Shown here: positions 13,285 to 14,871 of the stretch, one piece after another | Layout of the letters: every line of letters begins with the position of its first letter | Position numbering within the stretch: the stretch's first letter is position 1 | From: Alphaproteobacteria bacterium | GTDB lineage: Bacteria; Pseudomonadota; Alphaproteobacteria; Pelagibacterales; Pelagibacteraceae | Reading direction: 5' to 3' | Length of the DNA: 32,981 bases | Assembly: GCA_018658635.1 (NCBI GenBank) | Contig: JABHUX010000047.1 | Coordinates: forward strand, 1-32,981 | Program-made: the position numbers and the translations under genes | The notes under the pieces: generated by a model | The model's database searches: none | What the model was told of the DNA's origin: nothing | What the model saw: the letters and a program-made list of their open reading frames with translations, nothing else

Positions 13285-14751
13285 TTATTTTTTACTAATC
13301 TTTTTTGGGGATTTTGATTTATCCTCTGATTTAGTATCTTTTTTTGATTTGTCGTCACTACCCTTTGCTGACTTAGCTGGTGATTTAGACTTAAGATTAG
13401 ATGATAAATCTTTTACAAGTTGTTCTAACTCTTTTTTATTAACTTCTTTAATAGTAACCTTGGCTTTAGATTTTACCAGTTCGACAATCTTATCTTCGTA
13501 TATTGGTCCTCTAAGTCTTGTAATTTCTGAGGGATTTTTTTGATAATAATCTCTAATTTGTTTTTCTTGTCCAGGGTACATACTCATTTGTTTTTGTAAT
13601 TCCTGCTGAAGTTCCTGTGTCGTTACTTGAATCTTATAATCTTCTCCAATTTGATTTAGCACTAAAGCTAGTTTTACTCTTCTTTTTGAAATATCTAAAA
13701 CATCTTCTTCTTCTTCTTTAGTAAGCTTTATGTCCGAATGATCATGTCCATGTTTATGATCATCATGGGGCTCATCTTTATGAGCTTTTTCATGAATAAA
13801 ACTATGTTTAACTATTTCTTTTTCATTTTTTACTAAGTCTTCAGGCAGGTCAAACTTACAGTTTTCATCTAAATAATCTAAAATTTCTTTTCTAACTATT
13901 GTTTCCGTAATTGAAGACTGTTCTTTTGACAGTTGTTTTTCTAATAGAATTTTTAAATCGTTTAAATCTTTTGCTCCTAAATTTTTTGCAAATTGATCAT
14001 CAATAACTACTGATTCTGATTTTTTAACTTCTAATATTTTACAATTAAATATTGCAGTTTTATTTGCTAATTCTTTCTTTGGATAATTTTCAGGTAAATT
14101 AATCTTAACATCTTTTTTATCGCCAGATTTACATGTTAATAATTGCTCATCAAAACCTTTGATAAAAAGATCTTTTCCTAAAATAATTTGAATTTTTTCA
14201 CCTTTATTTCCATCGAAAGCTTTACCATTAACAGTTGCCTCAAAATCAAAAACTACTAAATCACCTTTAACAGAATTTTCGCCTTGTTTCTTATTAACGT
14301 ATTTTTTTTGACCTTCTGCTAATAAATTAATTCTGTCATCTAAATCTTTTTTTTCAATTTTTAATTTATAATCAGTTAATATTATTTTTTCTAATTCGAT
14401 TTTTTTTATTTCAGGAGTTTTTTCAACAGAAATTGTGTACTCTAAATCTTTATTTTCACCTGAGGATTTGATTTCAATTTTTGGCTGACTAGCGGGTTTA
14501 ATTTTATTATCATTTAACGCTTGATAAGTGTTGTCCTGTAAAATTTTTTCTAAAACTTCTCCATATAAAGCTTGGGAAAATTGTTTTTTTAATAAATCCA
14601 CTGGCGCTTTTCCTGGTCGAAAACCTTTAATGTTAACAGTCTTCTGTAGTTCAATAACTCTTTCTTCTATTTTTTTATCAATCTCATGTTTCTTAACCAA
14701 AACATTTAGATTGGTCTTTAAACCTTTAGATTCTGATACTGTTACTTTCAT
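13285..14751 (-). CDS. tig: Trigger factor (ribosome-associated chaperone, FKBP-type PPIase) with His-rich insert
   Basis: Binds next to the ribosomal exit tunnel and helps nascent chains fold. It has 488 residues, longer than the usual 430-450. The N-terminal ribosome-binding domain has the signature GFRPGKAP (43-50); the FKBP-like PPIase domain is at about 155-245 (GDLVVFDFEATVNGKAFDG); the C-terminal chaperone arms follow. Two features stand out: a histidine-rich insert at 316-338 (8 His in 23 residues) in the C-terminal domain, and a Lys/Ser/Asp-rich tail from about 454 to the end. The ATG is 8 nt after the CCA of tRNA-Leu(TAG), with no clear Shine-Dalgarno. It leads the tig-clpP-clpX cluster. 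Confidence 0.97.
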   Translation of the reverse strand: MKVTVSESKGLKTNLNVLVKKHEIDKKIEERVIELQKTVNIKGFRPGKAPVDLLKKQFSQALYGEVLEKILQDNTYQALNDNKIKPASQPKIEIKSSGENKDLEYTISVEKTPEIKKIELEKIILTDYKLKIEKKDLDDRINLLAEGQKKYVNKKQGENSVKGDLVVFDFEATVNGKAFDGNKGEKIQIILGKDLFIKGFDEQLLTCKSGDKKDVKINLPENYPKKELANKTAIFNCKILEVKKSESVVIDDQFAKNLGAKDLNDLKILLEKQLSKEQSSITETIVRKEILDYLDENCKFDLPEDLVKNEKEIVKHSFIHEKAHKDEPHDDHKHGHDHSDIKLTKEEEEDVLDISKRRVKLALVLNQIGEDYKIQVTTQELQQELQKQMSMYPGQEKQIRDYYQKNPSEITRLRGPIYEDKIVELVKSKAKVTIKEVNKKELEQLVKDLSSNLKSKSPAKSAKGSDDKSKKDTKSEDKSKSPKKISKK

Positions 14752-14759
14752 ATTCTACA

Positions 14760-14843
14760 TGGTGCGGGAGAAAGGACTTGAACCTTCACATCTTTCGATA
14801 CCAGTTCCTAAGACTGGCGTGTCTACCGTTCCACCACTCCCGC
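14760..14843 (-). tRNA. tRNA-Leu (TAG anticodon)
   Basis: An 84-nt class II tRNA with encoded CCA. Acceptor stem GCGGGAG/CTCCCGC, anticodon loop CTTAGGA (TAG) on a CCAGT/ACTGG stem, long variable arm, T arm containing GTTCAAGTC. It lies directly before tig in the same orientation. Confidence 0.96.
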
Positions 14844-14871
14844 TTTAATATTAATTAAATTTCGAATGGCG

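Follow-up and report, generated by a model that had tools for sequence, protein, structure and literature searches.

For most newly made bacterial proteins, trigger factor is the first chaperone they encounter, and the copy encoded in the DNA analysed here (hereafter the window: 32,981 nucleotides, contig C82 of an 828,789-base genome that is 83% complete) carries a dense group of histidines in its C-terminal chaperone domain. This raises the question whether these residues form a metal-binding site kept by selection or are a low-complexity expansion of a tolerant loop.

The tig gene and its genomic context

The features of the encoded protein (Tig) that define it as a trigger factor (TF) are as follows.

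13285 to 14751, minus strand: tig, trigger factor, 488 amino acids (open reading frame; Pfam PF05697, PF00254 and PF05698; TIGR00115 equivalog; Foldseek)
14326 to 14751, minus strand: ribosome-binding Trigger_N domain, residues 1-142 (Pfam)
14035 to 14277, minus strand: FKBP-type PPIase domain, residues 159-239 (Pfam)
13471 to 13965, minus strand: Trigger_C chaperone domain, residues 263-427, enclosing the His-rich loop (Pfam)

All three features tested identify the protein as a trigger factor. It scores 344.1 bits against the NCBIfam equivalog TIGR00115 (cut-off 180.2), and the Pfam domain order Trigger_N, FKBP_C, Trigger_C, with all three present, is that of a full-length TF. The sequence GFRPGKAP at residues 43-50 fits GFRxGxxP, which we take to be the TF ribosome-docking signature, and G43, F44, R45, G47 and P50 are invariant in an alignment of 31 sequences. 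Foldseek returned the E. coli TF structures 2vrh and 1w26 as top matches (E about 1e-29), with a large overall rmsd of 14 angstrom. The possibility that the gene encodes SlyD itself was ruled out, since the TIGR00115 equivalog match identifies a TF and the His cluster is internal and not C-terminal; the C-terminal tail (residues 454-488) is Lys/Ser-rich and devoid of His.

The closest relatives of this TF, at 91-95% identity, are encoded on contigs of Candidatus Fonsibacter and of other Pelagibacterales or alphaproteobacterial MAGs and SAGs, pointing to a Candidatus Fonsibacter-like host from the freshwater LD12 SAR11 group. We take Fonsibacter and LD12 SAR11 to be the same lineage. This equation agrees with PMC10030771. 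The gene order on the minus strand is tRNA-Leu (14843-14760), tig (14751-13285), clpP (13258-12644) and clpX (12532-11252), and the tig-clpP-clpX arrangement is reported as conserved across Proteobacteria (PMC7804408). The tRNA-Leu(tag) gene (14760-14843), also on the minus strand, precedes the tig start codon by 8 bases, and an open reading frame on the plus strand that crosses it (14528-14848) is probably spurious.

Composition and predicted structure of the histidine cluster

The region of interest comprises one His-rich segment and two structural parts.

13738 to 13806, minus strand: His-rich segment, residues 316-338, 8 His in 23 amino acids (positions, shuffles, codon-level conservation)
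13780 to 13806, minus strand: residues 316-324, with H316, H320 and H324 at the end of the predicted arm-1 helix 304-324 (AlphaFold2, alignment)
13720 to 13779, minus strand: residues 325-344, predicted to form a flexible hairpin loop that holds HDDHKHGHDH (AlphaFold2)

Tig has His at positions 22, 316, 320, 324, 329, 332, 334, 336 and 338, so that eight of its nine histidines fall within residues 316-338; the count and the position of the cluster given by the sequence-only reading are thus exact. Among 20,000 shuffled versions of the protein, none had more than five His in a stretch of 23 residues, against the eight observed. The first three are spaced i, i+4 and i+8 and should therefore line up on one side of the first helix at its end, and the other five lie in the HDDHKHGHDH stretch that follows. 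The segment aligns to residues ~316-334 of E. coli TF, in arm 1 of the C-terminal domain. An AlphaFold2 model built with 31 sequences (mean pLDDT 83, pTM 0.64) places a helix at residues 304-324, a loop with pLDDT below 50 at 328-336 and a second helix at 345-371, so that the His site is predicted to be the flexible tip of a helical hairpin in arm 1. The E. coli arm-1 residues L314, F322, L332, L336 and F337 are described as contacting the partner subunit of the dimer at its ribosome-binding domain (PMC5988418).

Counted from the helix that precedes the tip up to the RRVKL helix, the segment is 72 amino acids long here, 58 in E. coli TF, 64 in 86 of 144 sampled alphaproteobacteria and 51 in all 65 other Pelagibacteraceae loci that cover it. 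Because of these shorter counterparts, we regard it as a lengthened natural loop and not as a new domain. The cluster had been described as inserted in the chaperone domain: it does lie within Trigger_C, but the term insert holds only in a relative sense.

Conservation within the genus and its loss nearby

Thirteen genomes of the same genus were available, ten of which, our own included, cover the His region. All ten carry 7-9 His there, with H320, H324, H329, H334, H336 and H338 unchanged throughout, whereas one sequence lacks H316 and three lack H332. Synonymous CAT/CAC swaps occur at five of the six invariant positions, H338 being the one without. Among the eight full-length sequences of the genus, pairwise identity is 91% at the His columns and 84% in the other loop columns, compared with 83% for residues 1-311, 87% for residues 353-445 and 68% for the Lys-rich tail. 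Synonymous and nonsynonymous codon differences, given as raw counts uncorrected for opportunity, are 42:20 at the His sites, 251:149 at the remaining loop positions and 3027:2030 over residues 1-445, which places the His sites only modestly above the rest. Purifying selection on them is thus of moderate and not of exceptional strength. The absence from close relatives that would have spoken for a neutral expansion did not occur within the genus, where alignment recovered the cluster in 10 of 10 genomes. In the SAG AAA280-P20 (L007) tig is split over two frames (query residues 1-388 and 381-488), probably through an assembly or sequencing error; the split tig at G010:C1:81998-83462 appears to be the same record.

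Outside the genus the pattern fades quickly. The four genomes of sister genus g12 have 5-6 His in the tip; in sister genus g9 there are 4-5 in genomes G020 and G032 and two in G374. H316 and H320, together with some of the remaining His, are common to most sequences of these two genera, with L134 of g9 as the exception. No TF match was found in G033, a 95% complete genome of g12. Genus g7 (three genomes), which falls inside the same subclade, has the loop length with 0-1 His. The His site is therefore dispensable, as both g7 and L134, with just two His, indicate. Across the wider family, 65 of 66 Pelagibacteraceae loci cover the region (L069 does not) and all 65 have 0-1 His in the 51-residue segment; five sequences from a second family of the order have 1-3. 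By these alignments, the His site is lost or absent only slightly beyond the genus.

Recurrence across Alphaproteobacteria

To place the cluster in the class, 289 alphaproteobacterial genomes were searched and 277 gave a TF match, of which 144 from 86 families were read; these come nearly all from the higher-scoring part of the 277, so that the most divergent TFs are missing. In this sample the arm-1 segment varies from 51 to 97 amino acids and holds no His in 96 genomes, while 19 genomes from 12 families have at least five. Twelve of these 19 have 9-22 His, often as (HD)n. Long segments are not always His-rich: 23 reach 68 amino acids or more, 14 of them His-rich and nine with fewer than five His. 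With its recurrence in 12 of 86 families, the feature is not peculiar to this organism. Nor does it depend on a very small genome, since the 12 cases of 9-22 His are all in genomes of 2.0-4.8 Mb.

On a TF tree (FastTree, 159 rows, loop columns removed) the His-rich tip changes state at least 11 times, six of these changes being forced by well-supported branches, in counts that do not separate gain from loss; on the 144 class rows alone there are nine changes. The tree thus suggests that His-rich tips arose or changed repeatedly at the same TF site in Alphaproteobacteria. By comparison, none of 34 TFs from non-alphaproteobacterial Pseudomonadota, taken among the best-scoring PF05698 matches, has more than one His in the segment, and 16 further alphaproteobacterial TFs from the same phylum search, also top-scoring matches, have 0-2; sampling by best PF05698 score may disfavour long inserts in both sets. 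The earlier statement that trigger factors normally lack such a stretch therefore stands for the 34 non-alphaproteobacterial sequences but not for Alphaproteobacteria, given the 19 of 144 with five His or more.

The coding of these tips varies. All four HD codon pairs are present in nine of the 15 His-rich tips examined, so the tips are not simply fresh copies made by DNA slippage. Sequences of the same genus differ in repeat number, with 18 against 22 His in one pair (L108/L110) and 11 against nine in another (L167/L196). The longest run seen in a tip, 16 His alternating without a break with Asp, belongs to G151 (L389), which, like G332 (L400, with an HD run at the contig end), stands outside the 144. 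Elsewhere in the protein, at least five His per 25 residues were found in at least one of the 144 TFs, a lower bound because the fetched stretches end with the match and most C-terminal tails fall outside the sample. One TF of another alphaproteobacterial family (G189, L392) has three His in the arm tip and a long C-terminal tail rich in (HD)n, at the position where SlyD has its own; this would represent a second way for a TF to gain a His stretch, and it is one that the count just given missed.

Histidine-aspartate tracts in other proteins

A DNA pattern for HDHDHDH was found in 83 of the 289 class genomes, and one place in each of 30 of them was examined. The tract lies inside an open reading frame at 29 of these 30 loci, and four of the 29 encode TF. 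Among the other 25 hosts, 17 belong to metal families by Pfam: CobW/COG0523 (six), nitrile hydratase alpha (six) and beta (one), and UreE, ZnuA, an HMA P-type ATPase and ZrgA (one each). The remainder are ABC ATPases (two), MacB/FtsX permeases (two), an RNase E/G (one) and three proteins with no Pfam assignment. Although indirect, this company is the strongest argument obtained here that the TF tip binds metal; the window's own TF, with its looser HDDHKHGHDH, does not match the HDHDHDH pattern.

In the nitrile hydratase alpha subunits (L369, L383, L384, L385, L393 and L398) the HDHDHDH-rich stretch sits just ahead of the Pfam domain and could possibly serve as a built-in Co/Fe reservoir. The MacB/FtsX-like permeases L373 and L374 have their periplasmic core domain and FtsX domain separated by a long stretch rich in His and Asp, and might belong to a metal-related exporter. 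The RNase E/G family protein (L380, genome G095) has its (HD)n-rich stretch in the N-terminal half.

Metal-related genes, SlyD and urease

In our own genome the motif HxHxH occurs at 43 DNA places. The loci of 30 of these yielded three open reading frames of at least 90 amino acids that carry it, namely TF, a 387-residue frame (HSHNHKH) and a 413-residue frame (HTHTH), and the other 13 places lie in frames of 56 amino acids or fewer; TF is the densest His carrier of the three. A search for slyD elsewhere in the genome, as the sequence-only reading had suggested, gave no match in this 83% complete assembly (G000) at E values up to 0.001, and ZnuA and urease were likewise not found in it. Two partial cobW matches (20.7 and 17.9 bits) lie around the cut-off of 20.7 bits and were not accepted as HypB/CobW. 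The nickel part of the metal role first proposed is thus without support in this genome, which has no urease match and just these two partial cobW matches. Nor do these searches tie the tip to any other particular metal. Members of IIIa.3 and LD12 are reported to contain fieF, an iron and zinc efflux pump (PMC10030771), and zinc handling is therefore relevant to the Fonsibacter lineage.

Across the 144 class genomes SlyD is present in 5 of 19 genomes with a His-rich TF and in 16 of 125 others (Fisher p 0.16; 30 of 36 matches counted, E up to 2e-13, a weak match in G162 bringing the first figure to 6 of 19). Urease is present in 11 of 19 and 44 of 125, respectively (Fisher p 0.076; 84 of 124 urease-alpha matches taken as real, E below 1e-20). 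Both comparisons contain just four independent lineage pairs, too few for a tree-aware test, and a urease or nickel link with His-rich TF is at most a weak trend. A SlyD-tail pattern run on other alphaproteobacteria picked up one of eight loci (L279).

Proposed function and alternative explanations

Taken together, these observations lead us to propose, with a probability of about 0.6, that the arm-1 tip is a metal-binding loop kept by selection. H316, H320 and H324 on the helix end, together with the five His of the flexible HDDHKHGHDH turn, would bind at least one divalent ion, most likely zinc, with nickel, copper or cobalt as other possibilities. Trigger factor is abundant in cells, and the ribosome-associated protein could buffer metal in the cytosol, or serve as a metallochaperone, at the site from which nascent proteins emerge. 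The simplest role would be to buffer a divalent ion or pass it on, zinc being the first candidate; there may also be effects on folding, dimerisation or docking to the ribosome.

A bolder reading, which overlaps with the metal-binding loop and which we hold to be doubtful, is that TF is a metal-gated chaperone in many Alphaproteobacteria and has evolved as such repeatedly. It is suggested by the location of the tip, because this lies on the dimer surface: the His would sit on the arm-1 face that, in the E. coli dimer, meets the ribosome-binding domain of the second subunit. A bound metal might then move TF between a free dimeric reserve and a monomer docked on the ribosome, and cytosolic zinc (or Ni, Co or Cu) would tune co-translational folding, or metal would be loaded onto nascent metalloproteins.

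Neutral low-complexity growth, in which a tolerant loop gathers His and Asp codons by slippage and drift, is unlikely in our view, yet it is the rival that we take most seriously, because segment length varies freely and some relatives have no His. The range of 51-97 amino acids, the nine of 23 long segments with few His, the His-free g7, the mostly His-free L134 and the unequal repeat numbers within genera (18 and 22, 11 and 9) speak for such growth. It accounts less well for His codons that change synonymously between CAT and CAC in Fonsibacter while the residue is kept, for HD units written in mixed codons, for the His-richness of the other 14 long segments, for tips of five His or more in Alphaproteobacteria against 0 of 34 in other Pseudomonadota, and for the finding that HDHDHDH elsewhere occurs mainly in metal proteins (17 of 25 frames). 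Another possibility is that a charged flexible tip aids chaperoning through solubility, pH sensing or contact with the nascent chain or the PPIase domain, His serving to tune charge and not to bind metal. Many 64-residue alphaproteobacterial segments are indeed rich in Glu, Asp and Lys and lack His, in keeping with the 96 of 144 that have none, and since this arm of E. coli TF takes part in the dimer contact with the partner's ribosome-binding domain (PMC5988418), changes at the tip may alter TF activity. We nevertheless find this explanation improbable, as it leaves the alternating H-D and H-x-H patterns and the i/i+4 spacing unaccounted for. Such alternation and i/i+4 His are typical spacings of metal ligands.

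It is highly improbable that the His-rich TF replaces SlyD, with its role in nickel delivery, in genomes that have lost it. The two proteins have an FKBP domain in common and our own genome has no SlyD match, but the same genome lacks a urease match and has no more than two partial cobW matches, and across the 144 class genomes SlyD is, if anything, more frequent beside a His-rich TF (5 of 19 against 16 of 125, p 0.16), the opposite of what replacement implies; we consider the idea not supported.

If the metal-binding loop is correct, an arm tip that has arisen repeatedly would link co-translational folding to metal homeostasis; metal-chaperone links of this type are known for SlyD, HspA and GroEL1. 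No description of a His-rich or metal-linked trigger factor was found among the titles and abstract openings of the open literature searched, a scope that takes in few subscription-journal papers, and within it the His-rich tip is apparently new for trigger factor.

Comparison with known systems

Relative to a canonical trigger factor, the three domains, the adjoining clpP and clpX and the arm-1 hairpin at its expected place are the same, whereas the tip is longer and His-rich, E. coli TF having no His in the segment. Among chaperones that have gained a His-rich metal-binding stretch, the mycobacterial GroEL1 and the Helicobacter HspA (GroES) offer a precedent, although their folds are unrelated to TF and their His-rich stretches are C-terminal tails, unlike the internal hairpin loop of TF. 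Removal of the GroEL1 His stretch is reported to have abolished binding to nickel beads (PMC3076238), and the HspA extension is described as a nickel sequestration-like domain (PMC7840056).

His stretches in COG0523/CobW, HypB and UreG/UreE have been taken as a sign of metallochaperones (PMC2770081). The (HD)n type of tract seen in TF also occurs in CobW and UreE proteins from this class, but these families are GTPases or urease accessory proteins and not ribosome-associated chaperones. A further parallel is SlyD, likewise a chaperone with an FKBP domain and a His-rich stretch; it differs in that its His/Cys-rich tail is C-terminal, while in TF the His lie in an arm-tip loop without Cys. The comparison with SlyD and HypB drawn by the sequence-only reading is thus apt as one of function: the TF loop would be analogous and not homologous to the SlyD tail, and may work like it.
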